DNA of 64,000 nucleotides, taken from positions 526,704 to 590,703 of the forward strand of contig NZ_LMSK01000002.1 in the NCBI RefSeq assembly GCF_001428385.1, in the 5' to 3' direction. Numbering within the stretch: the first letter of the stretch is position 1; every line of letters starts with the position of its first letter. Below are positions 6,206-58,541 of the stretch, piece by piece. The notes under the pieces were generated by a model. It saw nothing but the letters and a program-made list of their open reading frames with translations. It was not told the origin of the DNA and made no database searches. The stretch is from Rhodanobacter sp. Soil772 (GTDB taxonomy: Bacteria; Pseudomonadota; Gammaproteobacteria; Xanthomonadales; Rhodanobacteraceae). Position numbers and translations under genes: made by a program.

Positions 6206-6234
6206 CCACCGGCACACCACGACGGCGCAAACAC

Positions 6235-6258: not shown

Positions 6259-6292
6259 GCATGGGCAGCTCATCGGGCTGCGATGCGGTGGC

Positions 6293-7159
<867 letters not shown>

Positions 7160-7188
7160 GGGTGGAACCTCCTGAACGACATCAAAGT

Positions 7189-7215
7189 TTAGCACTCGGG
7201 CACTTGGAGTGCTAA
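7189..7215 (-). promoter_or_regulatory. CIRCE operator (HrcA binding site) upstream of rpoH
   Basis: Perfect inverted repeat TTAGCACTC-N9-GAGTGCTAA, identical to the CIRCE consensus in both 9-base arms and in spacer length. It ends 29 bases before the rpoH start codon, within the expected 5' untranslated leader, the usual CIRCE position in front of groESL and dnaK operons. The match is direct; HrcA binding is inferred. Confidence 0.93.
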
Positions 7216-7251
7216 AGCACGGCATTGGTTCCGCGCTTTAATGAACTAAAT

Positions 7252-7278
7252 GGTATAGATATTAATCACCCTTGTCCA
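7252..7278 (-). promoter_or_regulatory. Possible core promoter of rpoH
   Basis: On the minus strand TGGACA (7273-7278) and TATACC (7252-7257) lie in the only AT-rich segment upstream of rpoH. The 15-base spacer is short, so the assignment is tentative. Initiation here would put the CIRCE element about 30 to 56 bases into the transcript. Confidence 0.3.
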
Positions 7279-7318
7279 GCGTCTCATCCAGCCCGATATG
7301 AGGCTGATGAAACCGCAT

Positions 7319-8880: not shown

Positions 8881-9019
8881 TCCTTAGCTCACCCACCCGA
8901 CCCGTGGCAGTCCTTCGCCGATGAACCTGCGGGCGCACCCCTGCACCCGCTGCAACTGGTGATAGTGCACCGGATACGGCATCGGCGGCTGCGATTCACG
9001 TCACCCCGGCGCAAGACCG

Positions 9020-10000: not shown

Positions 10001-10674
10001 AGCACCTCCTCGGCGGCCAGGTCGGCCACCAGGCGGCCGTGGTCGAGCACGATCACGCGTTTCTTCATGCGCTTGATCAGCGGCAAGTCGTGACTGGCGA
10101 CCAGCACGGTGGTGCCGACCTGCTGGAACTCGCCGAACAGGCCCATGATCTCTACCGCCAGCTGCGGGTCGAGGTTGCCGGTGGGCTCGTCGGCGATCAA
10201 CAGGCTGGGACGCGCCACGATCGCACGGGCGATGCCCACGCGTTGCTGTTCGCCGGTGGACAGCGTGGCCGGCAGCTGCCGTTCGTAAGCGAGCAGGCCG
10301 ACCTTCTCCAGCGCCGCGCGCACCCGCCGCGCGCGTTCGGCGCGGGCGATACCGCCGATCGCCAACGGCAACTCGACGTTGGCGAACACCGTGCGATCCA
10401 GCAGCAGGCGATGGTCCTGGAACACCATGCCGATGTGCCGGCGCCACTTCGGAATGCCGCTGTGGCGGATCTTCGCCAGGCTCTTGCCGTCCACGCTGAT
10501 CACGCCGTGCGAGGGCCGCTCGATCAGTCCCAGCAACTTGAGCAGGGTGCTCTTGCCGGCACCGGAATGCCCGGTGACGAAGGCCATCTCGCCCGTCGGC
10601 ACCTCGAACGAAAGCTGCGAGAGCGCCTCATGGCCGCCCTCGTAGCGCTTGCTGACTTGATCGAAATGGATCAC
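9997..10674 (-). CDS. ftsE: Cell division ATP-binding protein FtsE
   Basis: 225-residue ABC ATPase partner of FtsX. Walker A is GHSGAGKST, the Q-loop lies in [10 protein letters not shown], the signature is [14 protein letters not shown], Walker B is [12 protein letters not shown], and the H-loop is in VLVASHD. FtsE usually begins (M)I-x-F-x-x-V-S-K; here GTG opens [11 protein letters not shown], so GTG at 10674 was chosen over an in-frame TTG 39 bases upstream. GGGGA lies about 6 bases before it. It is first gene of ftsE-ftsX, which may read through into the response regulator and ung. Confidence 0.95.
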
Positions 10675-10785
10675 CGAGCGTCCCCGAGCCTGCGTGTCGT
10701 CATATCGACGCAAGGATAAGGGAAGCCGGCCGCAAGATGCGGACTTCTCTGATCGCCGCGGTTCAGCCCGCGGCGATCATGACGC

Positions 10786-12537
10786 TCAGCGGCCGGTGAA
10801 CAGCCGGGTCAAGCGGCGGAACAGACCCGGCTTTTTCGGATGAGCGTGTTCGACGGCCTTGCCCGAAGTCACCGCGACCTGCCGCGACGGCCGGCTGTGC
10901 GCCGTGCCGCCGGACTCGGCCGCATTGCGCTCGCGCGGCGGGCGACGCTCGCCGCGCGGTGCGCGATTGCCCTCGGCGACCGCGGCCTGGTGGCCAGTCG
11001 TCTCGACGCCATCGGTCGGCGCGCCTTCACGCCGGCGATTGCGCCCGCCACGACGGCGCCGCGGCTTGCGCGTGCCTTCGGCGGCCGTGCCGCCATCCGC
11101 GGCCGGGGCCGCGTCGGTCTTGTGCGCGGCCACGGCGACCGGTTGTTCGGTCGCGATGGCCGCGCTGCCATCGGCTGCGGCCGGCCGGCGCTCGCGCGGC
11201 GGACGCGTGGCGCCGCGGCTGCTGCCACCGTGCTCGCCACTGCGGCCGGGGCCACCACCATGGCGCGGCTTCTCGCCCGGACGCGGCGCCACCACGTCGC
11301 CGAACGCGGCGCTGTCGGCGGCGGCGTTCGCGGCGAATTCGGGATCGACCGCGCGCGGCTTCGGCATCACCAGCAGTTCCGGATCCATCTGCGCGACCGG
11401 AATGCTCTGCCCGATATAGGTCTCGATGTCCGGCAGCGACATCGCGTACAGGTCGCAGGCGAAGCTGATCGCGTCGCCCTCAGCACCGAGCCGCGCGGTG
11501 CGGCCGATGCGATGCACGTAATCCTCGGCCTCGTGCGGCAGGTCGTAGTTGAAGACGTGGCTGACCGCGGGAATGTGCAGGCCGCGCGCGGCCACGTCGG
11601 TGGCCACCAGGATGTCCAGCTGGCCATCCTTGAAACGCTGCAGCAGCTTCTGCCGCTTCAGCTGCGGCACGTCGCCGGAGATCGCGCCGACGCGGCAGCC
11701 GTGGCGCTTGACCCGTTCGGTGATGCGCTCGGCGGCGGCCTTGGTGTTGACGAAGATGATGCTGCGCGAAGGCTGGTGCCGGTCGATCAGATTCAGCAGC
11801 AGCGGCATCTTCTCTTCCTTGGCCGGGAAGTAGACCAGCTGGTGCACGTGATCGGCGGTGACGTTGTCGCTCTCCACCACCAGCTTCTCGGCCTCGTGCA
11901 TGTGCTCGTAGGCCAGTTCCAGCACGCGGTGGCTCAGCGTGGCGGAGAACAGCAGCACCTGGCGCTGTTCGCGTGGCGGCAGCTTGCGGAAGATGAAGCG
12001 CACGTCCTTGATGAAGCCGAGGTCGAACATGCGGTCGGCCTCGTCGATCACCATCACCTCGACGCTGTTGAGGCTGAAAACCCCCTGCTTGTGGTAGTCG
12101 AGCAGGCGGCCGGGGGTGGCGATGATGATGTCGCAGCCGTCCTTCAATTGCTGACGCTGCTTGTCGTAGTCGACGCCGCCGTAGATCAGCGCGCTGCGCA
12201 GGCCGGTGTGGCGGCCGATCGCCTTGGCGTCCTTCTCGATCTGGATCGCCAGTTCGCGGGTGGGCGCGATCACCAGTGCGCGCGGGTCGCTGTCCTTGCG
12301 CTCGGCCACGGCCGGCGTGGTCAGCAGGCGATTCATCAGCGCGACCAGGAACGCACAGGTCTTGCCGGTGCCGGTCTGCGCCTGGCCGGCGACGTCGCGC
12401 CCGGCCAGGGCCGGCGCCAGGGTCATTTCCTGGATCGGCGTGCAGCGGGTGAAGCCGCTGTCGTCCAGGCCCTGCTGCAGCAGCGGATGAAGATCGAAGT
12501 TGGTGAAGAAGGTATCGGTGAGTACGGTTTGTGACAT
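10786..12537 (-). CDS. rhlB: ATP-dependent RNA helicase RhlB
   Basis: 583-residue DEAD-box helicase, in E. coli part of the RNA degradosome. The Q motif is FTRCTPIQ, motif I AQTGTGKT, motif [15 protein letters not shown], motif III FSATLS, motif [12 protein letters not shown] and motif [10 protein letters not shown]. About 190 residues beyond the helicase core form a low-complexity tail rich in Arg, Gly, Pro and Ala (for example [13 protein letters not shown]), as in other xanthomonad RhlB proteins, probably an RNA-binding disordered tail. [10 protein letters not shown] was taken as the start by family similarity; an in-frame GTG at 12582 with AGGAG 4 bases upstream is a real alternative adding 15 residues. 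It is divergent from trxA-rho. Confidence 0.93.
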
Positions 12538-45170: not shown

Positions 45171-47153
45171 ATGCTCAATCCGCAACAACTGGCCGCCGTC
45201 GAACACTGCGACAGCCCGCTGCTGGTGCTCGCCGGCGCCGGTTCCGGCAAGACCAGCGTGATCACCCAGAAGATCGCGTACCTGGTCCAGCGCCGCAAGC
45301 TGGCGCCATCGAAGATCGCCGCGATCACCTTCACCAACAAGGCCGCGCGCGAGATGCGCGAGCGCGTGGCGAAGCTGGTCAGCAGCGAGGATGCGGCTGC
45401 GCTCACGGTAAGCACCTTTCACGCGCTGGGGCTGAAGTTCCTGCAGATCGAACATGCCCGCGCCGGCCTGCGCCGCGGCTTTTCGGTGCTGGACGCGGAC
45501 GACAGCGGCGGCATCGTCAAGGAGCTGGCGCCCAAAGGCGCGAAGAACGACGTGCTGTTCGGCATCCGCAACCTCTTGAGCCGCGCGAAGAACGGCGGCC
45601 TCTCGCCGGAGGAAACGCTGGCTGCCGCGCGCAGCCCGCGCGAGCTGGAAGCGGCGACGATCTATGACATGTACCAGCAGCGCCTTGCCGCGTTCAACGC
45701 GGTGGATTTCGACGACCTGATCCGGCTGCCGCTGCGCATCCTGGAAAGCGACGCCGAGTGCCGCGACGCGTGGCGCGAGCGCCTGCGCTACCTGCTGGTG
45801 GACGAGTACCAGGACACCAACGACGCGCAGTACCGCCTGCTCAAAGTGCTGACCGGCGAACGCGGCGGGATCACCTGCGTGGGCGACGACGACCAGTCGA
45901 TCTACGCCTGGCGCGGCGCGAATCCGGAGAACATCGACCAGCTCGGCCGCGACTGGCCGAACCTGCGCGTGATCAAGCTGGAACAGAACTACCGTTGCGG
46001 CAAACGCATCCTGCGCGCGGCGAACGCGCTGATCGCGCACAACCCGCACAGCCACGAAAAGAAGTTGTGGAGCGAGCACCCGGAAGGCGCGCCGATCCGC
46101 GTACTCGAATGCAAGGAGGCCGAGCACGAGGCCGAGCGCGTCGCCGCGATCGCCACCACGCTGGCCGAGAAGCACAAGGCGCGCTGGGACGACATGGCGA
46201 TCCTGTACCGCGGCAATTTCCAGGCGCGGCCGCTGGAGAAGGCGCTGCGCCTGGCGCGCGTTCCCTATCACCTCACCGGCGCGCTGTCCTTCCTCGACCG
46301 CGCCGAGGTGAAGGATGTCTTGTGCTACCTGCGCCTGCTGACCAACCCCAGCGACGACGCCGCGTTCCTGCGCGTGGTCAACGTACCGAAGCGCGAGATC
46401 GGCGCGACCACGCTGGAGAAGCTGGGCCAGATCGCGCAATCGCGGCACTCGTCGCTGCTCGATGCGACGCGCAGCGACGGCGTGCTGCGCCAGCTCACCC
46501 CGCGCCCGGCCGCCGCGCTCGCCTCGTTCGCGAACCTGCTGGACGAACTGCGTAGTGCTTCGCTGCACGAAAGCGCCGCCGACCTGGTCGAGCTGATCCT
46601 GAAACGCACCGGCTACGTCGCGCAAATCATCGCCGGCACACCCGACGCCAGCACGCGCGATCGCAAGCTGGGCAATCTGCAGGAACTGGCCGACTGGTTC
46701 CGCGCGATGCAGAAGGGCGGCAATACGGCCGGCGACCTCGCCTCGCAGCTGGCCCTGCTCAGCCACGCCGACCGCGACGAGCCCGGCAACGCCGTGCGGA
46801 TGATGACCCTGCACGCGGCCAAGGGCCTGGAGTTCCGTTTCGTCTTCATCGTCGGCTGCGAGGACGGCACGCTGCCGCATGAAGGCGCCATCGACGAAGG
46901 CCGCATCGATGAGGAGCGCCGGCTGATGTACGTCGGCATCACCCGCGCGAAGGAATGGCTGACGCTGTCGTGGTCGGCCAAGACCAAGCGCTACGGCGAC
47001 GTCCACAGCAACCAGCCCAGCCGCTTCCTGCACGAACTGCCGCAGGCCGACCTGCACTGGCAGGGCAAGGACCCGGAAGCGGACAAGGAAGTGACCCGCG
47101 AAACCGCCGAGTCGCACATGGCGCGGATCAAGGCGATGCTGGCGGCCCAGTGA
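45171..47153 (+). CDS. rep: ATP-dependent DNA helicase Rep
   Basis: 660-residue superfamily 1A 3'-5' helicase that clears protein blocks ahead of replication forks. Motifs: Q motif LNPQQLAAVE, Ia VLAGAGSGKTSVI, TFTNKAAREM, motif II VDEYQDTN, III CVGDDDQSIYAWRGA, IV LEQNYR, V VRMMTLHAAKGLEF and VI RLMYVGITRAKE. The length and motif wording fit Rep rather than UvrD. ATG at 45171 directly opens the conserved N terminus. The stop is 13 bases before the convergent gltS stop. Confidence 0.95.
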   Translation: MLNPQQLAAVEHCDSPLLVLAGAGSGKTSVITQKIAYLVQRRKLAPSKIAAITFTNKAAREMRERVAKLVSSEDAAALTVSTFHALGLKFLQIEHARAGLRRGFSVLDADDSGGIVKELAPKGAKNDVLFGIRNLLSRAKNGGLSPEETLAAARSPRELEAATIYDMYQQRLAAFNAVDFDDLIRLPLRILESDAECRDAWRERLRYLLVDEYQDTNDAQYRLLKVLTGERGGITCVGDDDQSIYAWRGANPENIDQLGRDWPNLRVIKLEQNYRCGKRILRAANALIAHNPHSHEKKLWSEHPEGAPIRVLECKEAEHEAERVAAIATTLAEKHKARWDDMAILYRGNFQARPLEKALRLARVPYHLTGALSFLDRAEVKDVLCYLRLLTNPSDDAAFLRVVNVPKREIGATTLEKLGQIAQSRHSSLLDATRSDGVLRQLTPRPAAALASFANLLDELRSASLHESAADLVELILKRTGYVAQIIAGTPDASTRDRKLGNLQELADWFRAMQKGGNTAGDLASQLALLSHADRDEPGNAVRMMTLHAAKGLEFRFVFIVGCEDGTLPHEGAIDEGRIDEERRLMYVGITRAKEWLTLSWSAKTKRYGDVHSNQPSRFLHELPQADLHWQGKDPEADKEVTRETAESHMARIKAMLAAQ

Positions 47154-47166
47154 ACGGTCGCGCCCG

Positions 47167-48387
47167 TCATTTCCAGCCGTTGACGAAGAACGTGATGACG
47201 ATGGCGTTAGTGAAGTCGATCAGGAACGCACCGACGATGGGCGCCACCAGGAAAGCGCGCGGCGCCGGACCGAAGCGCTCGGTCAGCGAACTCATCACCG
47301 CCATCGCGTTGGCCGTCGTGCCCAGCATGAAGCCGACGAAGCCGCTGGCCATCACGGCGGCATCGTAGTCGCGCCCCATCAACCACCATAGCGGCCAGCA
47401 GCAGAAGGCCACGACCACGATCGACTGCACGCCCAGGTTGACCAGCAAGGGCATGGCCAGTCCGGCGAGATCCCACAGATGCAGGTTCATCAGCGCGACG
47501 ACGAGAAACAGCGAGAGCGAGGCGTTGCCGATGATGTCGATGCTGCGCAGCGACAGGCCGAACCAGCCGAGGTGGTCGTCGAGGTTGCGGATCAATGCGC
47601 CCACGAGCATCGCGCCGATGTAGCTGGGCAGGGTCAGGCCGAGCGCGCCCAGCCCGCCGCTGATCCAGGCACCGATGCCCATGGCCAGCAGGATCAGCAC
47701 GAAGCTCCTGAGCCCCGCATAAGTCTGCTCTTCGGCGCTGATGGCGTTTGCCGCGGCAGCGACGGGCGCCGGTGGCGGCATTGCCGGCGTGCTCCCGACC
47801 ACGTCCAGTGATTGTGGCGTGCGCAGCTTGAGCCGCTCGATCAGCATCGTCGCCAGCGGTGCGCCGATCACCGAGCCGCAAACGATGCCGGCCATCGCGT
47901 TGGCCAGCGCCACGCTCGGTGCGCCTTGCACGCCGGCCTGGGTGAACAGCGGCGCGAAGGCCAGGCCGGTGGCGGGGCCACCGGCGAGCGTGACCGAGCC
48001 GGCGATCACGCCGAACAACGGCGGCAGTCCGAACGCCGTGGCCAGTCCGATGCCCACCAGGTTCTGCACCACGGCGAGACCGGTGGCGAGGCCGAGGAAC
48101 AGCACGATCTGGCGACCGCTGACCTTGAGCAGGGACGTGCTTGCGTTGAAGCCGATGGCGGTGAAGAACGCGATCATCAGCGGCTGTTGAAACGCCGTAT
48201 CGAAGTGCACCGGGGTGAGGTTCCACGGGCGGCAGGCGAGCAGCGCCAGCGCCACCAGCAGGCCGCCGATCACCGGCGCCGGGATGCTGAAGCGCGCCAG
48301 CAGCGGCACCCGCGCGCGGATCGCATACCCGGCGATCAGGCACAGGCCGCCACAGGCCACGGTCTGGATCGGGTCGAGGGTCAGCAT
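47167..48387 (-). CDS. gltS: Sodium/glutamate symporter
   Basis: 406-residue inner-membrane carrier with about 10-12 transmembrane segments in two halves joined by a polar linker (about 205-225). Each half carries the glycine-rich re-entrant loop of the family: SVTLAGGPATGLAF in the first and GFVGFMLGTTANAMAV in the second. GltS imports L-glutamate with sodium; some homologues also carry D-glutamate. It is last gene on the minus strand of the cluster lysR, receptor, ggt, dgcN, dgcA, gltS, 70 bases after dgcA, so it probably imports the glutamate set free in the periplasm. Confidence 0.93.
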   Translation of the reverse strand: MLTLDPIQTVACGGLCLIAGYAIRARVPLLARFSIPAPVIGGLLVALALLACRPWNLTPVHFDTAFQQPLMIAFFTAIGFNASTSLLKVSGRQIVLFLGLATGLAVVQNLVGIGLATAFGLPPLFGVIAGSVTLAGGPATGLAFAPLFTQAGVQGAPSVALANAMAGIVCGSVIGAPLATMLIERLKLRTPQSLDVVGSTPAMPPPAPVAAAANAISAEEQTYAGLRSFVLILLAMGIGAWISGGLGALGLTLPSYIGAMLVGALIRNLDDHLGWFGLSLRSIDIIGNASLSLFLVVALMNLHLWDLAGLAMPLLVNLGVQSIVVVAFCCWPLWWLMGRDYDAAVMASGFVGFMLGTTANAMAVMSSLTERFGPAPRAFLVAPIVGAFLIDFTNAIVITFFVNGWK

Positions 48388-48457
48388 GCGGGTGCCCTCT
48401 CAACCGCCGCGGCTCGCCCAGCCGGCAAGCCCGCAGATGCGCGAGCGGCGATCGCCC

Positions 48458-49444
48458 TCATCCGCCCCAGAACGCCGGCAATGGCGGCAGCAGGAAGCCG
48501 CCCTGCAGACTCACGCCGTCGGGGTAGTCGTCCTGCAGCCAGAGCGGGCCGTCCAGGTCGATGAACTCCGCTTCGCGCGCGATCTCCAGCGCCGGCGTGA
48601 TACCGAGCGAGGAACACACCATGCAACCGACCATGATCCTGAAACCGTCGACGCGCGCGGCCCGCAACAAGCGCCAAGCCTCGGTCAAGCCGCCGGTCTT
48701 GTCCAGCTTGATGTTGACTGCCTGATAGCGGCCGCGCAGCCGCGGCAGGTCGGCGGTGACATGGCAGGACTCGTCGGCGCAGATCGGGATGCGGCTGAAG
48801 AAACCCAGCAAGGCGTCGTCCGCGTCCGCCGGCAGCGGCTGCTCCAGCAGTTCGACGCCCGCGCACTCCAGCATCGGTTGCATGTCGCGCAGCAGTTCGA
48901 TGTTCCAGCTTTCGTTGGGGTCCACGATGAGATGGGCGAGCGGCGCCGCCCGCCGCACCGCCTCGATCCGCGCCGCCGGGTCGTCCGCGTCGACCTTGAT
49001 CTTGATCAGTCCGGCGCCGGCGATGCGGGACGCCGCCTCCCCCATCCGCTCCGGCGTGTCGATGCCGACGGTGATCGCGCTGACCAGTGTGGACCGTGGC
49101 GGGCGCGCCAGCTGCACCCACACGGGCACCGAGCTGAGTTGCGATTCGAGATCCCACATCGCCGCGTCCAGCGCATTGCGCGCGGCGCCCGCCGGCAGCC
49201 GCACCTGCAATTCATCGCGCCCCATGCCGGCGACGAGTTCGGCGCGCAACGCCTCCATCGCGTCGATCACCGACGCCACCGATTCGCCGTAGCGCGCGTA
49301 GGGAACGGATTCGCCGCGCCCGATGCGGCCCGCCTGGCGCAACTCGACCGTCACCACGTCGGCGGCGTACTTGACCCCGCGCGCGATGCGGAAAGGCGCC
49401 ACCAGCGGGAAGCTGTGCTGCGTGATGCTCAGTTCGCGAAGCAT
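48458..49444 (-). CDS. dgcA: Enolase-superfamily dipeptide epimerase / N-acetyl-D-glutamate racemase DgcA-like
   Basis: 328 residues of the muconate-lactonizing subgroup. Acid-base residues are Lys148 and Lys150 in LIKIKVDADD and Lys246 or Lys249 in VNIKLDKTGG; metal ligands are Asp175 (VDPNESW), Glu201 (LLEQPL) and Asp224 (CADES). The spacing nearly equals that of E. coli L-Ala-D/L-Glu epimerase. Two activities are plausible: epimerising L-Ala-D-Glu from murein, or racemising N-acetyl-D-glutamate as DgcA in the D-glutamate pathway of Pseudoalteromonas. Coupling to a DUF1611/DgcN gene (16-base overlap) favours the latter. Confidence 0.85.
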   Translation of the reverse strand: MLRELSITQHSFPLVAPFRIARGVKYAADVVTVELRQAGRIGRGESVPYARYGESVASVIDAMEALRAELVAGMGRDELQVRLPAGAARNALDAAMWDLESQLSSVPVWVQLARPPRSTLVSAITVGIDTPERMGEAASRIAGAGLIKIKVDADDPAARIEAVRRAAPLAHLIVDPNESWNIELLRDMQPMLECAGVELLEQPLPADADDALLGFFSRIPICADESCHVTADLPRLRGRYQAVNIKLDKTGGLTEAWRLLRAARVDGFRIMVGCMVCSSLGITPALEIAREAEFIDLDGPLWLQDDYPDGVSLQGGFLLPPLPAFWGG

Positions 49445-50472
49445 GCGAGCAGGTTGTCCACGATGGTTTCGACACCCATGGTCACCGGGTCCTGGCAGGG
49501 CAGCTGGAGCAGATCGCTGATCCGCTGGCAGGCCGCCAGCGCTTCCGGTGCCGACAGGCCGGAGGTGTTCAGCGCGACGCCGACCGGCTGGACGGCCGGG
49601 TTGGTCAGGCGCGCGGCGGCGAGATTGGCTTCGAGACAGTGTTGCAGTTCGGGCAGCGGGTAACCGGGCAGGCCGCGCATGTGACGCCGGGTCGGCTCGT
49701 GGCACAACACCAGCGCGTCGGGCTGGGCGCCGTGCAGCAAGCCGAGCGACACGCCGGCGTAGGACGGATGGAACAGCGAGCCCTGGCCCTCGATCAGGTC
49801 CCAGCCGTCGTCGCTGCGGGCCGGCGAAATCCATTCGACGGCGCCGGAGATGAAATCGGCGACCACCGCATCGACCGGTACGCCCGCGCCGGCGACGAAA
49901 ATGCCGGTCTGGCCGGTGGCGCGAAAATCCGCCGCGCAACCGCGCTGGCGCATGGCGCGTTCCAGCGCGAGCGTGGTGTACATCTTGCCGACCGAGCAGT
50001 CCGTGCCCACCGTCAGCAGCCGTCGGCCGGCGCGCGGGCGACCGGTGCCGACCGGTATGCCCGGTGCGGGGTCGCGGGCGTCGAACAGCACGCGGCCGTT
50101 GCGCCGCGCGGCCGCCACGATGTCCGGATTCGCGCGCAGCTTCTGGTGCAGGCCGGCGATCACGTTGAGGCCGGCGTCGAGCGCCGCGATGGCGTCGGCA
50201 ACGATCTCCGGCGCCATCACGCCACCGGCGTTCGCGATGCCGATCATCATGGTATTCGCGCCGCGGGTCCTGGCCTCGGCCATGCCGATGTCGGGCAGGC
50301 CCAGCGTCAGCGTGCAGTCGGGGTGACGGTACTGGCCCACGCACCATTCCGGGCGCCAGTAGGCCACGCCCCTGGCCGTCTTGATGGCCAGATCGTCGGC
50401 CGGGTTGCCCAGGTACAGCAGGTAAGGCGGGCCCCAGCTGGAAGGCGGGGTCGCAGCGCCATGGTTTGGCAT
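49429..50472 (-). CDS. dgcN: DUF1611 protein, DgcN-like D-glutamate N-acetyltransferase
   Basis: 347 residues. The N-terminal domain (about 15-150, LYLGNPADDLAIKTARGVAYWRP) precedes a P-loop-like domain beginning VGTDCSVGKMYTT (155-167) with TGQTGIFVAGAGVPVDAVVADFISGAVEW and EGQGSLFHPSYAGVSLGLLHGAQPDALVLCHEP, the DUF1611 signature. DgcN of Pseudoalteromonas, a member of this family, acetylates D-glutamate before racemisation by DgcA; here the dgcA-like gene overlaps its 3' end. The start at MPNHGAATPP is uncertain, since the frame is open to 50559. Activity is inferred from family and neighbour. Confidence 0.83.
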   Translation of the reverse strand: MPNHGAATPPSSWGPPYLLYLGNPADDLAIKTARGVAYWRPEWCVGQYRHPDCTLTLGLPDIGMAEARTRGANTMMIGIANAGGVMAPEIVADAIAALDAGLNVIAGLHQKLRANPDIVAAARRNGRVLFDARDPAPGIPVGTGRPRAGRRLLTVGTDCSVGKMYTTLALERAMRQRGCAADFRATGQTGIFVAGAGVPVDAVVADFISGAVEWISPARSDDGWDLIEGQGSLFHPSYAGVSLGLLHGAQPDALVLCHEPTRRHMRGLPGYPLPELQHCLEANLAAARLTNPAVQPVGVALNTSGLSAPEALAACQRISDLLQLPCQDPVTMGVETIVDNLLACFAN

Positions 50473-50662
50473 GAAAGGCTTGCTCCACGTGACGGTCACG
50501 CCGCCGACCGGATGAAAGTGCCTGCGCCGAGGCGTGGTTCGGTGAGCCTTGACCGGCAACAGACAGGGGAAATGCGGGTGAGTCGGGCGGCCGCGCCACT
50601 GCCGGATGACTCACCGGCAGCGCGCAGCATCCCGTCAGCCATGCCGACCAGGCGGCCGGGCC

Positions 50663-52435
50663 TCAATGGATGGTTTCGACCTTGCCCAGGCCATTGGGAT
50701 TGCGTGGATCGCTGGCCGCGGTCTTGGTGTTGGTCGTCTTGTCCCAGACCACCACGTTCATGTTGCCCCACGAATTCTCGTCGTTGATCTCGTAGCCCAT
50801 CGCCTTCAGCTTTTCGAGCACGTCGGCGGGAATGTCGCTGCCCTTCTCGATGTCGACGCGGTCGGGCATGAACTGATGGTGGATGCGCTTTTGCGCGGTG
50901 ATCTCGCCAGCGTTCTTGCCGTCTATGAAGGCCAGGATGCCTTCGAACACCTGCGTGATGATGGTCGAGCCGCCGGGCGATCCGATCACCGCCAGGCGAT
51001 CCTTGCCGATGACGAAGCTGGGCGTCATCGACGACAGCATCCGCTTGCCGCCGACCGGCGCGTTGGCCGAGCCGCCGATCAGGCCGAACGCGTTGGGCTG
51101 GCCGGACACCAGGGCGAAGTCGTCCATCTCGTTGTTCAGCAGCACGCCGGTCTTGCCGGCGACGAAACCGGAGCCCAGCGTGGTGTTGACCGTGGCGGTC
51201 ATCGACACCATGTTGCCGTCCTTGTCGACGATCGAGTAGTGCGTGGTATGCATGCCCGGATCCTTCGCATGCACCGACGGCAGCCACGCCGACTTGGTCG
51301 CCCGGTCGGGCAGGATGCTCTGGCGCAGGCCGTCGGCGTAGTACGGCGAGAGCAGCATGTCCAGCGGCATCTTCACGAAGTCGGGGTCGCCCAGGTATTC
51401 GTTGTGGTCGCGGAAAGCGCGGCGCATCGCCTCGACGAGGTAATGGATGCGATGAGCTTCATCCATGCTCTTGAGATCGATCGGCGCAAGGATGTTCAAC
51501 ATTTCGGCGAGCGCCACGCCGCCGGAAGACGGCGGTGGCGCGGTGACGATCTTGTAGCCGGCGTAATTCAGCTCGATCGGCGCGCGCTCCTTCGCCTGAT
51601 AACTCGCCAGATCGGCGAGCGTCCAGGTACCGCCGGACGCCTTCACCGCCCTGACCAGTTCCTTCGCCACCGCGCCCTTGTAGAAACCGTCGGCACCTCG
51701 TTCGGCGATGGCTTTCAGCGTGCCGGCCTGACCCGGATCGCGGAAGATATCGGTCGTCTGCGGCGCCTTGCCGCCGGGGAAGAACTTGCCGGCCGAGGCC
51801 GGATACCGGCGCAGCACGTCGGCCTCGCGCCCGATCGAACGGACCAGCGCGCCGCTGGGATGGAAGCCCTTGTCGGCCAGCCGGATCGCCGGACGCAAGG
51901 ACACGGCGAGCGGCAACTTTCCGTACTTGCCGGCCATGTAGGCCAGCCCGGCCGGCATGCCGGGAATGCCGGCGGCGAGCGGGCCGTGGAGTGAGGTGTC
52001 GCGGTTGGGGCTGCCGTCGGCGTTGCGATAATCGGCTTCGCGCACGGCCTGCGGCGCCATCTCGCGCGCGTCGATGAAGGTGTCCTTGCCGGTGGCGGCA
52101 TCGTGGATCAGGGCGAGGAAGCCGCCGCCCAGGCCCGACGCTTCCGGCTGCACCACCGACAGCGAGGTGGCCACGGCAATCGCCGCATCGACCGCGTTGC
52201 CGCCTTGGGCGAGGGTTTCGAAACCGGCTTCGGTGGCCAGAGCATTCGCGCTGGCGATCGCGGCGGTGCCCGTCGCCGTGGTTCGGGGTGCCGCGCCGTC
52301 CTGTGCGTACCCGAGCACGCCGAACGCGGCGATCGCCACCACCAGGACGGGTCGGTACCAACGCAAGGTCTGACGGCTCAGCGGCGCCCGACAGGCTGGC
52401 TTGGCATGGGGTCGCGGCGTGTTTCGATCGGACAT
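50663..52435 (-). CDS. ggt: Gamma-glutamyltransferase / gamma-glutamyl hydrolase
   Basis: 590-residue Ntn hydrolase exported to the periplasm; cleaves gamma-glutamyl bonds (glutathione, gamma-glutamyl peptides, possibly poly-gamma-glutamate). An N-terminal hydrophobic segment (about 30-48) acts as signal. The precursor self-cleaves before the nucleophile Thr397 (GMHTTHYSIVDKDGN). Other motifs: NAVDAAIAVATSLSVVQPEASGLGGGF, the oxyanion-region RMLSSMTPSF and GSPGGSTIITQ. GGAGG lies 8 bases before the ATG. It sits between a TonB-dependent receptor gene and the dgcN-dgcA-gltS set, so its physiological substrate is probably a gamma-glutamyl compound imported by that receptor. Confidence 0.95.
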   Translation of the reverse strand: MSDRNTPRPHAKPACRAPLSRQTLRWYRPVLVVAIAAFGVLGYAQDGAAPRTTATGTAAIASANALATEAGFETLAQGGNAVDAAIAVATSLSVVQPEASGLGGGFLALIHDAATGKDTFIDAREMAPQAVREADYRNADGSPNRDTSLHGPLAAGIPGMPAGLAYMAGKYGKLPLAVSLRPAIRLADKGFHPSGALVRSIGREADVLRRYPASAGKFFPGGKAPQTTDIFRDPGQAGTLKAIAERGADGFYKGAVAKELVRAVKASGGTWTLADLASYQAKERAPIELNYAGYKIVTAPPPSSGGVALAEMLNILAPIDLKSMDEAHRIHYLVEAMRRAFRDHNEYLGDPDFVKMPLDMLLSPYYADGLRQSILPDRATKSAWLPSVHAKDPGMHTTHYSIVDKDGNMVSMTATVNTTLGSGFVAGKTGVLLNNEMDDFALVSGQPNAFGLIGGSANAPVGGKRMLSSMTPSFVIGKDRLAVIGSPGGSTIITQVFEGILAFIDGKNAGEITAQKRIHHQFMPDRVDIEKGSDIPADVLEKLKAMGYEINDENSWGNMNVVVWDKTTNTKTAASDPRNPNGLGKVETIH

Positions 52436-52530
52436 TCGTTCACCCTCCACAGGATGGGTCGAGCATAGTTACGCGCAGACGGGTGCCACCAATGAAAAGA
52501 CCGCTGCGTTGCATAACCGACGGTTGTAGA
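52436..52530 (-). promoter_or_regulatory. ggt promoter/operator region (shared block A)
   Basis: This block is repeated, at almost equal distance from a matching ATG, at 55345-55440 (block B). Identical parts include CCAATGAAAAGACC (52489-52502), GCATAAC with GGTTGT (52511-52527) and GAGCATA (52461-52467). On the minus strand TTGGTG and TATGCT are 19 bases apart, a weak promoter that would need an activator. The conserved upstream words are candidates for LysR-type operator half-sites. Confidence 0.6.
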
Positions 52531-52552
52531 TGTCTGCGTACCGCAACGAAAA

Positions 52553-52570
52553 CCCCGGCATGCACCGGGG
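52553..52570 (-). terminator. Rho-independent terminator of the TonB-dependent receptor gene
   Basis: CCCCGG / CCGGGG stem with a 6-base loop, followed on the minus strand by TTTTCGTT, 28 bases after the receptor stop codon. It separates the receptor transcript from ggt, which has its own promoter block. Confidence 0.8.
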
Positions 52571-52597
52571 CCTTCGTCGCGTCAGCGCGAACGCGAT

Positions 52598-55090
52598 CTA
52601 CCAGTGGTACTGGACTTTCCCGTACACGAACGCGCCCTGGAAGCCGAACGGCGAACTCGACGAATACGGGAACGCGCCGTTCTGGTCGCTGTCCTGGCGG
52701 GTCTTTTCCGGATAGGTGTTGAGCACGTTGTCGCTGCCGACGGTGAAGGTCCAGCTGTTCACGCTGTAGTTCACCGCAAGGTCGATCAGCCACTTGTGCG
52801 GGTACACCTGATCGTTCAAGTAGCTGGTCGAACCGTACGAGGTGATGCGGCCATAGCGGGTCGCGGTGGCCGTGACGCCCCAGCGGCCCAGGTTGTACGT
52901 CTCGGTCAGGATCACCTTGCTGCGCGGCGCGGTGTCGGCCAGCAGGCCCTTGGTGGCGCTGCGGTTGAGGCGCAGGAAGATCGCGCCGAGCGAGTCGAGT
53001 ACGGCCGGGTTCGCGCGCACGCCGGTGACCTTGTTCTCGTTGTAGGTTGCCGACAGCGTCGTCATCAGTGTGCCGCCGTTGCTGAAGTCACTGCGGTAGC
53101 TGGACACCCAGTCGATGCCCCGGCTGCGCACGTCGCCGGCGTTGGTGAAGTAGGAAATGCCGCTGTACTGCAGGTTGGTCACGCCGTTGGCGGCCAGGTA
53201 ATCCTTCACGGCCGGCGTCGAGGTGGAAAGCGTGCTCGACAGCGCGATACGGTCGTTGACGTTGATCTGGTATGCATCGATGCTCAGGCTCAGCGCATCG
53301 GTCGGATTCCACACCATGCCGAACGTGTAGTTGCGCGACTTCTCCGGCTTCAGCGGTTCACTGCCGAGCAACCTGGCGATGGGGTTGTCCACCGGCACCA
53401 GCCCGCGCAGGTAGATGCCTGCCGGCAGGCCCAGCGAGTTGCCGGCGCCGAAGGACGCCGAGGTGGTTTCCGAATAATGCTGCTGCCCCAGCGTCGGTGC
53501 GCGGAAGCCGGTCGAGACGCTGCCGCGCAGGGCGAACGTGTCGGTGAAGTCGAAGCGCGCCGACAGTGCGCCGGACGTGGTGGTGCCGAAGTCCGAGTAA
53601 TCCTCGTGGCGCGCCGCAAGCGAAACGCCCAGCTTGTCGGTGAGGTTGGTTTCCAGCTGCACGTACTCGGCGATGTCGGTGCGGGCCACCGACATTGCGT
53701 CCTGCGGCCCCCAGCCGGCGAAGCCCTGGGCGCCGCCGCGCACGCCGGAGGTGCCGACGTAATACGAACCCGGCTCGCCCGCCTCGACGTTGTAGGCCTG
53801 GCGCAACCATTGCGTGCCGAAGGAAACCGTCACCGGATTGGGCAGCCAGCCGACGGCCATCTCCTTGGAGATGTCGATGTCGAAGGTCTGCTGCGTCGCC
53901 GTCAAGGTGCCGTCGTGGAAGTCGGTGGGGCTGCTGCCGAAATCATTCAGCAAGGCATAGTTGGTGCTGTTGAGGGTGCTGTAGAAAACCCGGTTGCCGC
54001 CGTAGTTCGCGCTGACGTCCCAGTGCCAGCCGTTCACCGTTCCGCGCAGTCCGGCAACCAGCGAGCGGTCGATCGAGACGCCGTGTTCCTTCGGCAGGAA
54101 GCCGTCCGGATAGACCAGTCCGATCAGCGCGTTGTTCGGGCTCGGCGTGTTGGTGCCGTAGCGGAAGAACCCGCGTGGCTCGCCGACGCGGCGCCCGTAA
54201 TGCCCGAACGCGTAGAACTCCACCCCGGGGGTGATGTCGTATTGCGTGTTGAGGAACAGGTTCTGGTTCTTGAACGACACCACGCCGTAGCTGAATTTCG
54301 GACCCAGTTGAGTGAAGCCGGGCCGACGGTCCACGCCGGCGCGGTTGGCCGGGCTCTGGTTGCTCTTCTCCATGGCGAAGCGCATCCAGCCCTTGTCGCC
54401 GCCAAGCGGGAAACCGAAGCTGGTCGAACCCTGCCATTGGCGGCCGTCGCCGGCCGAATACTGCCCGCCGGTGGCCTGCACGTCGCCGCCTTCGGCACCC
54501 TTCTTCAGGATGATGTTGATGACGCCGGCCAGCGCGTCCGAACCGTATTGCGCCGAGGCGCCGTCACGCAGTACCTCGACATGGTCGATGGCGGACATCG
54601 GGATCGTATTGAGGTCGATGCCCTGCGAGCCCTGGCCGATCTGGCCCAGGCTCAGCAACAGCGCGCCGGAGTGCCAGCGCTTGCCGTTCACCAGCACCAG
54701 TACCTGGTCCGGCGACAGGCCGCGCAACTGGAACGGCCGTTGGAACGCGAACGTGTCCGAGGCGGGCGCGAACGGGAAGTTCAGCGACGGAATGGCGCGG
54801 GCGAGCGCCTGGGTCAGGTCGATCGTGCCAGTCTGTTTCAGCACGTCGGAGGAGATCACGTCGATCGGCGTCAGCGACGAACTTTCCGTGCGGTTGCCGG
54901 CACGCGTACCGGTCACCACCACCGGGCCCAGGTTCTTCACCCTGGCCTGTGCCTCGGTCGATGCCTTGGCCGTTGCATCGGCCGATGCCGCGGGCGGGCT
55001 CGCATTCTGCGCCGCCGCCGTGTGGGTGAGTGCAAGCAGTATCGCAGCAGCCAGCGAGGTCGAAGTGATCCGACCGGGACGCTTGTTCAT
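52598..55090 (-). CDS. TonB-dependent outer-membrane receptor
   Basis: 830 residues. Signal peptide (1-27, ending TAAAQ), a polar linker, a TonB-box-like VVVTGTR (about 57-63), the plug domain (about 70-190, QLRGLSPDQVLVLVNGKRWH and LRDGASAQYGSDALAGVINIIL), and a 22-strand-type beta-barrel ending VQYHW with a terminal aromatic residue for BAM recognition. It imports a ligand across the outer membrane using TonB energy; the ligand is unknown. Position directly upstream of ggt and downstream of a LysR gene suggests gamma-glutamyl peptides or related amino-acid oligomers. The ATG follows GGGGGGAA. Confidence 0.93.
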   Translation of the reverse strand: MNKRPGRITSTSLAAAILLALTHTAAAQNASPPAASADATAKASTEAQARVKNLGPVVVTGTRAGNRTESSSLTPIDVISSDVLKQTGTIDLTQALARAIPSLNFPFAPASDTFAFQRPFQLRGLSPDQVLVLVNGKRWHSGALLLSLGQIGQGSQGIDLNTIPMSAIDHVEVLRDGASAQYGSDALAGVINIILKKGAEGGDVQATGGQYSAGDGRQWQGSTSFGFPLGGDKGWMRFAMEKSNQSPANRAGVDRRPGFTQLGPKFSYGVVSFKNQNLFLNTQYDITPGVEFYAFGHYGRRVGEPRGFFRYGTNTPSPNNALIGLVYPDGFLPKEHGVSIDRSLVAGLRGTVNGWHWDVSANYGGNRVFYSTLNSTNYALLNDFGSSPTDFHDGTLTATQQTFDIDISKEMAVGWLPNPVTVSFGTQWLRQAYNVEAGEPGSYYVGTSGVRGGAQGFAGWGPQDAMSVARTDIAEYVQLETNLTDKLGVSLAARHEDYSDFGTTTSGALSARFDFTDTFALRGSVSTGFRAPTLGQQHYSETTSASFGAGNSLGLPAGIYLRGLVPVDNPIARLLGSEPLKPEKSRNYTFGMVWNPTDALSLSIDAYQINVNDRIALSSTLSTSTPAVKDYLAANGVTNLQYSGISYFTNAGDVRSRGIDWVSSYRSDFSNGGTLMTTLSATYNENKVTGVRANPAVLDSLGAIFLRLNRSATKGLLADTAPRSKVILTETYNLGRWGVTATATRYGRITSYGSTSYLNDQVYPHKWLIDLAVNYSVNSWTFTVGSDNVLNTYPEKTRQDSDQNGAFPYSSSSPFGFQGAFVYGKVQYHW

Positions 55091-55214
55091 GAAATTCCCC
55101 CCAAGTGTTTTGCCGCAACAAGACCGCCGCAGGCCAAAGCGCTCGCATGGCTTTGTCGGTCGACGGATGTACCCCAGTAAATTGCCTCGACCGCGAACCG
55201 GTCCCCGCCGGCGA

Positions 55215-55344
55215 ACGCGGCGTCACCGTCCTGCGCGGCTACCGCCGCCGGGAGAACAATCCGGCATGACCGCGAGGTGCTGCGGCATGGCCGTTCCCCC
55301 CAGGCCGGCTCCGTACGTTGTCGCGGCGCGTTTCGGTCGGACAT
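55215..55344 (-). pseudogene. Degenerate duplicate of the ggt 5' end
   Basis: From ATG at 55344 the frame reads MSDRNAPRQRTEPAW and later VLPAAVAAQDGDAA, resembling the N terminus of the intact Ggt (MSDRNTPRPHAKPAC, VLVVAIAAFGVLGYAQDG). The similarity stops after about 45 codons and no catalytic region follows. With the matching upstream block B it shows that the ggt promoter and 5' end were duplicated and that this copy lost its body, leaving the promoter in front of the receptor gene. Confidence 0.7.
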
Positions 55345-55440
55345 TCGCTCACCCTTCGCAGCACGAGGTTGAGCATAGGCACAGGCATGCAACAGCGACC
55401 AATGAAAAGACCGGCACGTGGCATAACTGAAGGTTGTGGA
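55345..55440 (-). promoter_or_regulatory. Receptor-gene promoter/operator region (shared block B)
   Basis: Duplicate of block A: CCAATGAAAAGACC (55399-55412), GCATAAC and GGTTGT (55421-55437) and GAGCATA (55371-55377), with the ATG distance differing by one base. TTGGTC and TATGCT are 19 bases apart on the minus strand, as in block A. It lies just downstream of lysR and about 255 bases upstream of the receptor gene, so it probably drives the receptor gene under the same regulator as ggt. Confidence 0.55.
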
Positions 55441-55473
55441 CGCCTTCGCCGCGAGCGGGCGGGCGAGGTGTCT

Positions 55474-56376
55474 TCAGGCCGGTGCCAGCATCTGCTGGGC
55501 AAGCTGGCGCACCAGGTCGAGGAAACGTTTCTGCACCGGGTTCAGCGGGCTGTCCAGCCGGTAGACCGCATAAAGCACGATGTCCAGTTGCAGCTTCAGC
55601 GGACGCGTCTGCACGGTTTCCCCGCTGCCCCGCGATGCCGTGAAGGGATCGACCAGGGCCAGGCCTTCGCCTTGCGCGACGAGCGAATACGCCAGCTGGT
55701 AGGTCTGTACCCAGACCGAGGTCTGCGGCGCCGGAACCACTTGCGCCAGCTGGCTTTGCAGCATGCGACCCAGCGCGTCCTGCATGGCGATGCCGATCAT
55801 CGGCTGGTCGGCCAGCGCGGTGACCGGCAACGGTTGCGCCAGCTCCGCGGCCGACCACCAGCCGGGCGGGGCGATGACCATGACGTGTCCATGGCACAGC
55901 GGTTCCTGGCGCAACCCCGGGTGGCCGGCGTCCTGCAGCGTGAGGCCGATGTCTGCCTCGTGCAGCATCAGCGACTCGCACATCTGCGCCGAGTGCTGGG
56001 TGAACAGTTCCGCGGTCGTGCCCGGGAAAGCCTTGCGCAACAGGGTGGTCGCGTCAGGCACCAGCGCCTGCGCCAGGGTCGGCGTGCACGTCACCCGCAA
56101 CGGGTAGCTTTCTGCACGGCCGATGTTCGCCGTGAGGCGCTGCAGGTCGTGCAGGTCCTGGATGATCTTCTCGACGCGGTGGCGCAGCAGCAGCGCTTCC
56201 TGGGTCGGCTGCAGACGCCCGCGCACGCGGCTGAACAAGGCGAAGCCGAGCTGGTGTTCGGCGTGCTGCAAGGCCTTGCTGGCGGCTGGCTGCGAAATGT
56301 TCAGGAGGTCGGCCGCACCGGTCAGGCTACCGGTGGTCAGCACGGCGTGAAACAGTTCGATATGGCGCAGACGCAT
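55474..56376 (-). CDS. LysR-family transcriptional regulator
   Basis: 300 residues. N-terminal winged helix-turn-helix (RLRHIELFHAVLTTGSLT, then AADLLNISQPAASKALQHAE; residues 2-62) followed by a periplasmic-binding-like effector domain (about 90-295). It is first gene of a same-strand cluster for a TonB receptor, Ggt, DgcN, DgcA and GltS. In Pseudoalteromonas a regulator named DgcR activates dgcN-dgcA; this protein is the obvious counterpart candidate, though equivalence is inferred only from position. Repeated sequence blocks upstream of the receptor gene and ggt are its likely targets; the effector may be D-glutamate or a related amino acid. Confidence 0.9.
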   Translation of the reverse strand: MRLRHIELFHAVLTTGSLTGAADLLNISQPAASKALQHAEHQLGFALFSRVRGRLQPTQEALLLRHRVEKIIQDLHDLQRLTANIGRAESYPLRVTCTPTLAQALVPDATTLLRKAFPGTTAELFTQHSAQMCESLMLHEADIGLTLQDAGHPGLRQEPLCHGHVMVIAPPGWWSAAELAQPLPVTALADQPMIGIAMQDALGRMLQSQLAQVVPAPQTSVWVQTYQLAYSLVAQGEGLALVDPFTASRGSGETVQTRPLKLQLDIVLYAVYRLDSPLNPVQKRFLDLVRQLAQQMLAPA

Positions 56377-56487
56377 GCCGGATTTCCGCCCCTTGCGCCA
56401 CGACGGCGATGGTGCCCGAGTGCAACATAGGCTCTGTTGCGAAGCAAGCTCCCGCGATGGGCGCCCGGCACAACCGGCGAGCGACAG

Positions 56488-57519
56488 CTACAACAGGTGC
56501 TCGGCTTCCAGCTCGCTTTTCAGATACGCGTAGTAGATCGGTGCGGCGATCACGCCGGGCAGGCCGAACGCGGCTTCCATCAGCAGCATGGCCACCAGCA
56601 GCTCCCATGCGCGGGCACGAATCTGGGTGCCGACGATGCGCGCGTTGAGGAAGTACTCGAGCTTGTGGATCAGGACCAGGAACACCAGCGCGGCGATGCC
56701 CACGCCCAGCGAGACCGACAACCCCGCGATGGCGATCGCGGTGTTGGAGATCAGGTTGCCGATCACCGGCAGCAGGCCGACCACGAAGGTCACCACCACC
56801 AGCGTCTTGGCCAGCGGCACGTGGATGCCCATCAGCGGCAGCACGCCGAGCAGGAAGATCGCGGTGAACAAGGTGTTGATCAGCGAGATCTTGATCTGCG
56901 CGAACACGATGTTGTGGAACGCCTCGGCCAGGCGCTGGCAGCGCAGGCTCAGCGCCCCCGCCAGCGGGCCCATCTGGTGCGCCGGCCGGGTCCGGCTGAG
57001 CGCCACGATCGCGCCCAGCACCAGGCCGATGATGATGTGCACGAACACCCGCACCGCGCCCTTGCCGGCCAGTTGCAAGGTGGCCGCATGCTTGCGCGCC
57101 AGCTCGATCGCGCCCACGCGCAGGTCGTCGACGCTGTCGGGCAGGTTGTTCACCAGGATCGGCGGCAGCTGCTGGCGTGCCTTCTCCACCAGCGGCATCA
57201 GTTGCTGCTGCCACAGTAGTTGGGGATTGCCGATCTCGCTGTGGAACAGGCTGATCGCGCCCAGGATCAGCAGGATCAGCAAGCCCACCACGACCGCGCC
57301 CAGCACGGCCACCACCACCACCCGCGCGCGGTCGCCGGAAATGCGCCGGCCCAGCAGCGGCACCATCGCCTGCACCAGCTCGAACACCAGCAGGCCAGCC
57401 AGCAGCGCCGGCAGCAGATGGATCTCGACGATCAGCAGCAAGGCCGCGGCCGTCAGCAGGTAACTCGCGTAACGGATGGTCGGCGAAGGCTCGCGCAGGG
57501 CGGGCAAGGGAGAATCCAT
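56488..57519 (-). CDS. AI-2E family (PerM/YdiK-type) membrane permease
   Basis: 343 residues with about seven to eight transmembrane segments: two pairs near the N terminus (about 17-50 and 68-92), a soluble middle (about 95-150), then five C-terminal segments. Motifs are FAQIKISLINTLFTAIFL and VGLLPVIGNLISNTAIAI, typical of the AI-2E transporter family (PF01594). Members export small molecules or act as sodium/proton antiporters; no substrate can be given. It stands alone, divergent from the acid phosphatase gene. Confidence 0.88.
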   Translation of the reverse strand: MDSPLPALREPSPTIRYASYLLTAAALLLIVEIHLLPALLAGLLVFELVQAMVPLLGRRISGDRARVVVVAVLGAVVVGLLILLILGAISLFHSEIGNPQLLWQQQLMPLVEKARQQLPPILVNNLPDSVDDLRVGAIELARKHAATLQLAGKGAVRVFVHIIIGLVLGAIVALSRTRPAHQMGPLAGALSLRCQRLAEAFHNIVFAQIKISLINTLFTAIFLLGVLPLMGIHVPLAKTLVVVTFVVGLLPVIGNLISNTAIAIAGLSVSLGVGIAALVFLVLIHKLEYFLNARIVGTQIRARAWELLVAMLLMEAAFGLPGVIAAPIYYAYLKSELEAEHLL

Positions 57520-57644
57520 GCGGGATGAAGCCGTGGGTGCGGGGTCGCCAGTCTGTCAGCAGCCCGCGCTGGCTGCCAGCCCTGCCACGGCGCTGTCGTA
57601 AACTCCGTTCATTGTCTTCGCCTCGCCTTTCCAAGGATTTCCCG

Positions 57645-58541
57645 ATGCCATTCCGCCTGCCCACGACCCTGCTCGCGCTCGCCCTGCTGGCCGGCTGTGC
57701 CACCACGCCGCGCCAACCCATGGCCGTGGCGCCGGCCGCGCCGACGGCACAGGCGGCGCCGGCCGTCGTTGCCGCCAACGACAACCTCAATGCCGTGGCG
57801 TGGAGCCAGACCGCGATCGAGCACGACCTGATCTACCTGCAGACCTACCGCGACGCCCAGGCGCGCCTGCTGGCCGCGCTGCACGACCGCCACTGGGACG
57901 CGTTGGGCAAGGGCGATCGCGGCACCCCGCTGCGCGGCCTGAAGCCGGCGGTGATCCTGGACATCGACGAGACCGTGCTGGACAACTCGCCGTTCGCCGC
58001 GCGCATGGTGCGGGGCAACCACGAATACAACGAGGCCGACTGGGCGGCCTGGTGCCGCGAGGAAAGCGCCCGCGCGCTGCCCGGCGCGCTCGAGTTCACC
58101 CGGTTCGCCGCGAAGCACGGCGTCGAGGTGATCTACATCTCCAACCGTGCCAAGGACCTGGACCAGGCCACCCTGGCGAACCTGCGCAAGGCCGGGTTTC
58201 CGGTCAGCGGCCCGCAATCGTTCCTCGGCCTCGGCACCGTGGTCGAGGGCTGCGAGCAGGCCGGCAGCGAAAAGGGGTGCCGCCGCCAGCTGGTCGCGCA
58301 GCATTACCGCGTGCTGATGCAGTTCGGCGACCAGATCGGCGATTTCGTCGACGTCCTCGCCAATACCGCCGACGGCCGCCGCAAGGCCGTCGCCGACTAC
58401 CTGCCGTGGATCGGCACGCGCTGGTTCGTGCTGCCCAACCCCACCTACGGCTCGTGGGAGCCGGCGCTGTTCAACAACGACTGGAGCGCCGCGCCCGAGC
58501 AACGGCGCCGGCAGAAGCTCGACGCGCTACGCACTCAATGA
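57645..58541 (+). CDS. Class C (e(P4)-type) acid phosphatase lipoprotein
   Basis: 298 residues with a lipoprotein signal peptide ([20 protein letters not shown]; lipidated Cys18). The HAD-type phosphatase domain has motif I VILDIDETVLDNSPF, the EADWAAWCREESARALPGAL region, motif II EVIYISNRAKD, and DxxxD-type motif IV FGDQIGDFVD. The class C enzymes, such as Haemophilus e(P4), are outer-membrane nucleotidases that release phosphate or nicotinamide riboside from nucleotides. AAGGA lies 8 bases before the ATG; the earlier open frame would hide the signal peptide. The AT-rich sequence downstream starts a candidate small RNA gene. Confidence 0.92.
   Translation: MPFRLPTTLLALALLAGCATTPRQPMAVAPAAPTAQAAPAVVAANDNLNAVAWSQTAIEHDLIYLQTYRDAQARLLAALHDRHWDALGKGDRGTPLRGLKPAVILDIDETVLDNSPFAARMVRGNHEYNEADWAAWCREESARALPGALEFTRFAAKHGVEVIYISNRAKDLDQATLANLRKAGFPVSGPQSFLGLGTVVEGCEQAGSEKGCRRQLVAQHYRVLMQFGDQIGDFVDVLANTADGRRKAVADYLPWIGTRWFVLPNPTYGSWEPALFNNDWSAAPEQRRRQKLDALRTQ

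Follow-up and report, generated by a model that had tools for sequence, protein, structure and literature searches.

A LysR-linked gene cluster of Rhodanobacter with a predicted role in the use of gamma-D-glutamyl murein peptides

A cluster comprising lysR, a TonB receptor gene, ggt, dgcN, dgcA and gltS was analysed in a 64,000-nucleotide stretch of the genome of Rhodanobacter sp. Soil772 (contig NZ_LMSK01000002.1, forward-strand positions 526,704–590,703), referred to here as the window. A preliminary description, made from the sequence of the window alone, had taken these six genes for a functional unit that scavenges gamma-(D-)glutamyl compounds. Together with a 68-nt upstream element that occurs twice among them, the genes probably form the core of a regulon acting on murein peptides.

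Genes and upstream element of the cluster

All six genes lie on the minus strand, in the order given above, within positions 47167–56376, and open frames with Pfam and NCBIfam matches bear out the arrangement and coordinates of the preliminary description. The features are as follows.

47167–48387, minus strand: gltS, sodium/glutamate symporter (Glt_symporter; TIGR00210 score 325.7, cut-off 310.75)
48458–49444, minus strand: dgcA, homologue of N-acetyl-D-glutamate racemase and dipeptide epimerase (MR_MLE; NF042940 score 420.3, cut-off 400)
49429–50472, minus strand: dgcN, homologue of D-glutamate N-acetyltransferase (DUF1611; NF041892 score 522, cut-off 480)
50663–52435, minus strand: ggt, gamma-glutamyltransferase (G_glu_transpept; TIGR00066 score 436, cut-off 357.85)
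52461–52528, minus strand: 68-nt element, second copy, upstream of ggt (matrix and model matches)
52598–55090, minus strand: TonB-dependent outer-membrane receptor (Pfam Plug and barrel)
55317–55344, minus strand: similarity to the first ggt codons, between the element and the receptor gene (alignment)
55371–55438, minus strand: 68-nt element upstream of the receptor gene, a proposed LysR operator/promoter (matrix and model matches)
55474–56376, minus strand: LysR-type regulator (Pfam HTH_1 and LysR_substrate)

The identities of the genes are established at the family level, with curated NCBIfam thresholds as the cut-offs for protein families and domains taken from Pfam. The receptor and the regulator have Pfam matches only, no NCBIfam model scoring above its cut-off; the best NCBIfam model for the regulator, that of Escherichia coli LysR (NF008239), gives 147.1 against a cut-off of 288, and E. 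coli LysR itself scores 590.7. The window DgcN matches the solved structure 7xrj (E = 7.6e-103) and is, by its profile score, a homologue of D-glutamate N-acetyltransferase with a predicted activity of that kind. The start assigned to it lies close to that of several relatives, which decided the choice, and its reading frame overlaps that of dgcA by 16 nt. The catalytic residues of DgcA, earlier described as intact, are indeed all present (the KxK, D, E, D, K and DxD motifs of the enolase superfamily). Ggt has a signal-like N terminus, as judged by eye, and its closest solved chain is E. coli GGT (2e0w, E = 5.2e-114), with the nucleophile and lid-loop regions aligned without gaps; the TIGR00066 score, the nucleophilic Thr and the substrate motifs in this alignment place it in the family. 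A sigma-70 scan of positions 46000–58000 gave no promoter.

The upstream regions of the receptor gene and ggt carry the two copies of an 82-nt direct repeat (73% identity). In gene sense, the 68-nt element within it reads CACAACC, a few bases, GTTATGCC, about 10 bases, GTCTTTTCATTGGTGGC and, about 20 bases further, TATGCTC. It contains an imperfect dyad, ACAAC-N5-GTTAT, of a size that we presume to be the one expected for a LysR-type site. The element is named here as a proposed operator, to which the clustered LysR would bind, with a presumed direction of control. Across the whole genome the element stands solely before the receptor gene and ggt; its 14-base core, with at most one mismatch, has two sites, both in the cluster, and a reversed control pattern has one.

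A matrix built from eight copies in four genomes (the window, L034, L035 and L037) recovered the element in all 24 other loci with the window type of dgcN (type 1, below) whose upstream region is present; L061, which has no match, stands outside this count as its contig begins inside dgcN. The same matrix found no element in three shuffles of the window, at two further loci of the genome (L003 and L076–L077) or in any of ten named loci (L099–L108) from other xanthomonads, alphaproteobacteria and one unclassified metagenome-assembled genome. It is a more independent test than the element model R1, which was built from the sites that it then finds. Since the similarity of the two window copies extends into the first ggt codons, the receptor promoter resembles a copy of the ggt 5' region, from which it may have arisen by duplication.

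Conservation across the family

The survey covered 147 genomes of the family, taken as Rhodanobacteraceae. A clear DgcN is encoded in 36 of them and the window type (dgcN1) in 29, with 71–100% identity for the main piece; G098 and G137 were not counted (29–30% identity, E = 4.5e-4 and 8.6e-4). A LysR orthologue (E ≤ 1e-80) is present in exactly the 29 dgcN1 genomes, with one match each. The element occurs at E ≤ 1e-4 in 31 genomes, namely these 29 together with G128 and G138, and eight genomes with best values of 0.0046–0.0098 were treated as noise. The first gene after an element is a TonB receptor gene in 29 of the 31. Because element, LysR orthologue and type-1 dgcN are common to the same 29 genomes, the cluster looks like a regulon rather than a set of mere neighbours. 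G128 and G138, both assemblies in many contigs, have no dgcN match and, at E ≤ 1e-80, no LysR orthologue; in them the element lies ahead of receptor and acylase-like genes (L197 in G128; L198 and L199 in G138).

Co-conservation of the six genes as a block, on which the preliminary description had staked its proposal, did not emerge from the neighbourhood survey: the exact order is found in four of the 29 dgcN1 genomes (the window, G126, G146 and G009), the others being rearranged or missing members. What persists of the functional unit, as a conserved regulon, is the element together with lysR, dgcN and a receptor gene, while ggt, dgcA and gltS vary. In most of the other genomes lysR and dgcN are divergent, with the element between them, followed by varying sets of dgcA, ggt, gltS and lysA. 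Element-led runs, tabulated in 30 rows, include ggt in 18, and site and gene positions add G118 and G096, giving 20 of the 31 genomes. A ggt gene apart from dgcN can carry its own element (G041, G022, G082, G095 and G117).

The receptors in these runs are of the carboxypeptidase-regulatory-domain type in 26 of the 30 rows, and 12 rows match the window-type model, which is pooled over three receptor clusters, that of the window included. In G041, G061, G117 and G142 dgcN was overlooked by the operon rule; there the sites end 46–170 nt before the dgcN matches; the site of G096 lies beside a dgcN piece, and the second site of G075 and one site of G142 fall outside the stretches read. Many of the loci that were read encode a TPR-sulfotransferase protein after the carboxypeptidase-regulatory-domain receptor (for example L039, 2579–4216).

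Substrate and proposed route

In some relatives the element-led runs contain partner genes, which among the 30 rows encode hydrolases of the beta-lactamase family in 10, diaminopimelate decarboxylase (lysA) in 8, D-amino-acid dehydrogenase (dadA) in 6 and a VanX-like dipeptidase in 3; D-acylase-like amidohydrolases also occur. Three rows (G024, G042 and G083) combine dgcN, dgcA, ggt, lysA, the beta-lactamase-like gene, vanX and dadA. At locus L041, lysA scores 466 on TIGR01048 (cut-off 297.9) and dadA 685.6 on NF001933 (cut-off 383); the VanX-like protein scores 135 on Pfam M15 (cut-off 27) and stays below both NCBIfam VanX-type cut-offs (173.6 against 320, and 122 against 176). In G024, a DapF gene (TIGR00652 score 229, cut-off 114.65) follows a D-acylase-like gene under the element, and a D-transaminase-like protein scores under its cut-off. 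Stand-alone lysA (at least 430 bits, as distinct from the presumed AK-DAPDC fusion, a long open frame scoring near 320 bits) is present in 57 of the 147 genomes, comprising all 29 dgcN1 genomes versus 28 of the 118 others. It is linked to dgcN1 in 13 of the 29 (in G142 across a contig break in dgcA, as inferred; in G093 at 13 kb) and lies within 15 kb of the 33–35% epimerase gene of a separate locus (below) in 17, G093 being in both sets.

As the element heads runs with genes for the breakdown of meso-diaminopimelate (mDAP), D-Ala-D-Ala and D-Ala in some relatives, murein stem peptides are favoured, the partner genes pointing to these rather than to glutathione or poly-gamma-glutamate. Of the three substrates that the preliminary description had thought likely, murein peptides are thereby brought forward and poly-gamma-glutamate recedes on the lid loop of Ggt and the regulon content; the idea of a unit for gamma-(D-)glutamyl compounds is kept, given that the receptor and Ggt genes share a conserved upstream element, and is narrowed to murein. 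Two side observations concern candidate further members: at the position of the G024 dapF, G128 has a gene equal to it in size, and a GH20 glycosidase gene after the element in G096 (L204, 1382–3682) hints that glycan breakdown can join the regulon.

The cluster is therefore best read, with a probability of about 0.58, as the core of a LysR-controlled regulon for the uptake and catabolism of the gamma-D-glutamyl part of murein stem peptides (L-Ala-gamma-D-Glu-mDAP-D-Ala), a reading whose substrate and reactions are all deduced from sequence. Murein peptides would pass the outer membrane through the TonB receptor, the N-terminal L-Ala would be taken off by another enzyme, and Ggt would then cleave the gamma-D-Glu-mDAP bond in the periplasm. 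GltS would import D-glutamate (or L-glutamate), DgcN would acetylate D-glutamate, and DgcA would racemise N-acetyl-D-glutamate to N-acetyl-L-glutamate, to be deacetylated or fed into arginine synthesis. E. coli GGT takes D-glutamine as a donor, according to a review (PMC8062742). The earlier statement that a deacetylase is missing from the window holds for the six cluster genes, none of which encodes one, and a candidate exists elsewhere in the genome (acetylornithine deacetylase equivalog, score 623.8, cut-off 345).

Searches of the genome with the glutamate racemase (MurI) model and with the Asp/Glu racemase family PF01177 gave no match, each of them matching in 10 of 14 control genomes. Across the family, MurI has a match in 45 of the 147 genomes, one above the cut-off and 44 under it and uncounted. 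With no Asp/Glu racemase found in the genome, imported D-glutamate would otherwise be a dead end, and DgcN and DgcA may be its route from D- to L-glutamate. According to PMC8788868, these genera build murein by way of MurD2/MurL.

Several observations weigh against this reading. A Vibrio fischeri D-glutamate auxotroph needed gltS mutations for growth at low D-glutamate (PMC12502697), so that import of D-glutamate by the window GltS cannot be taken for granted. The cluster encodes no enzyme for removing L-Ala, and with three ggt genes in the genome the clustered one need not be the sole gamma-glutamyl hydrolase. The genome's own element precedes only the receptor gene and the ggt–gltS run, and its mDAP genes sit at another locus that lacks the element. 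Among relatives, ggt was not found in the element-led runs of 11 of the 31 genomes (G005, G013, G064, G078, G124, G134, G061, G111, G142, G128 and G138; some stretches are short), the VanX-like genes occur in just 3 of 30 rows with scores below the NCBIfam cut-offs, and the genomes are related, so the counts are not independent. Two further points concern DgcA: E. coli YcjG, a dipeptide epimerase, scores 424.1 on the DgcA model versus 420.3 for the window protein, and 11 of the 29 dgcN1 genomes are without type-1 dgcA, no DgcA- or YcjG-like protein beyond a 33% epimerase being found for eight of them.

The strongest competitor, although unlikely, is that the DgcA-like enzyme is an L-Ala-D/L-Glu epimerase of the YcjG type acting on the dipeptide, with DgcN acting separately on free D-glutamate. 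Besides its score, YcjG has the same catalytic motifs as the window DgcA and is placed within the dgcN-linked family by a quickly made tree, in which YcjG, Pantoea and Photobacterium have long branches; neither profile score, motifs nor tree separates the two proteins. Every dgcN1 genome, moreover, has type-1 dgcA alone (12 genomes), the 33% epimerase locus alone (11) or both (6), and none has neither (Fisher p = 0.0004, uncorrected for kinship), with type-1 dgcA thus in 18 of 29. From this split it seems that either may substitute for the other, and also that DgcN works without type-1 DgcA in 11 genomes. Against this competitor stand the overlapping frames of dgcN and dgcA, the score of the window DgcA on the model of YcjG-type epimerases (NF011708; 323.1, below the cut-off of 343), and the presence of dgcA in at least 75 of 80 named loci with dgcN, the best of 591 confirmed (each spans at most 21 kb and many less, so that counts are minima).

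General scavenging of gamma-glutamyl compounds and glutathione, in which the receptor and Ggt would supply L-glutamate to GltS and DgcN and DgcA would only clear occasional D-glutamate, is less probable again. It would suit the kinship of Ggt with E. coli GGT, a type described as degrading glutathione (PMC8062742), and the match of GltS to its equivalog model, but not the constancy of dgcN in the regulon genomes (29 of 31, with ggt found in 20) or the regulon partners that act on D-amino acids and DAP in some relatives. Scavenging of poly-gamma-glutamate, from which Ggt would trim D- and L-glutamate, is very improbable and was set aside as the main substrate on lid loop and regulon content: the polymer contains D-glutamate, and Bacillus subtilis GGT is reported to free both isomers from it, but the Bacillus enzymes that degrade it are without the lid loop (both PMC8062742), whereas that region is present in the window Ggt, gap-free against E. 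coli GGT with Phe replacing the loop Tyr, and lysA, vanX-like and dapF genes would be of no use.

A wider form of the murein-peptide reading, more tentative and in our estimate just short of an even chance, is that Rhodanobacteraceae possess a regulon for the use of peptidoglycan peptides, not described before and defined by one LysR and one 68-nt element. Ggt and DgcN/DgcA would replace the endopeptidase and dipeptide-epimerase route because D-glutamate is made only on the murein precursor (MurD2/MurL), with no free glutamate racemase. Unrelated TonB receptors would be drawn into the regulon, in this case through a duplicated ggt promoter region, and some genera would add catabolism of mDAP and D-Ala.

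Related loci and known systems

Two other loci of the same genome are related to the cluster.

G000:C2:277000-296999, 3639–12516 (L003): second DgcN/DgcA locus, with rpiR, APC permease, dgcA2, D-acylase-like amidohydrolase, dgcN2 and TonB receptor genes
G000:C2:371000-402000 (L076–L077): third locus, with 33–35% epimerase, RpiR, SDF and DUF819 transporters, transglutaminase-core, TonB receptor, lysA, M19 dipeptidase, beta-lactamase-like and Amidase_2 genes

L003 resembles the cluster in having dgcA, dgcN and a TonB receptor gene side by side, and differs in its RpiR regulator, its APC permease, a D-acylase-like amidohydrolase with a signal-like N terminus and the lack of the 68-nt element; neither Ggt nor GltS was seen among its genes. 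Its DgcN2 scores 463.8, below the cut-off of 480, and in its DgcA2 the N-terminal ARG motif is replaced by AHETY. The gene content of L076–L077 was assigned by clustering with annotated relatives, whose epimerase loci add an NlpC/P60 protein with SH3 and VanX-like genes, and it looks like a conserved murein peptide locus.

On a broader scale, the best 80 of the 591 confirmed dgcN loci include a TonB receptor gene in at least 24, a D-acylase-like gene in at least 23, ggt-like in at least 10, gltS in at least 7 and lysA in at least one. Sphingomonads account for 13 of the 24 receptor-bearing loci, and the seven with gltS are from Frateuria, Luteimonas, Pseudoxanthomonas or Stenotrophomonas; the combination of gltS and dgcN therefore looks like a trait of the xanthomonad order, and the receptor link looks broader. 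The preliminary description had put forward the linkage of the dgcN/dgcA pair to a TonB receptor, Ggt and GltS in a xanthomonad as undescribed; the receptor link reaches beyond xanthomonads in these counts. In the literature searched, from which most subscription papers are absent, no description was found of a murein-peptide receptor with D-glutamate catabolism or of a dgcN regulon. To our knowledge, little has been described of the outer-membrane receptors by which murein peptides are taken up as food. If the murein-peptide reading is true, the regulon supplies candidate receptors, candidate inducers and a putative operator; it would also extend DgcN/DgcA from marine D-glutamate use to cell-wall scavenging and tie them to the MurD2/MurL way of building murein.

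DgcN–DgcA catabolism of D-glutamate is known from marine Proteobacteria and halophilic archaea (Yu et al. 2023, ISME J, as cited in PMC12363236). As in that system, the window dgcN adjoins dgcA, and the two proteins score above curated cut-offs, as E. coli YcjG also does on the DgcA model; unlike it, the pair stands with genes for a TonB receptor, Ggt and GltS and with a LysR-linked element. Among the best 80 loci, many from alphaproteobacteria, Vibrio and Photobacterium have only dgcN–dgcA among the families modelled. The cluster may also be compared with E. coli ycjG–mpaA, annotated as a murein-peptide epimerase locus, and with B. subtilis ykfABCD, which we take to serve murein peptide catabolism by a dipeptide epimerase. 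The cluster lacks the gamma-D-Glu-DAP endopeptidase or amidase of ykf/ycjG-type loci, its six proteins having no NlpC/P60 or amidase domain in Pfam searches. The cluster shares with these two systems the same D-glutamate problem, a related epimerase family and the logic of murein-peptide use, and differs from them in that cleavage is proposed to proceed through Ggt and conversion through acetylated free D-glutamate.

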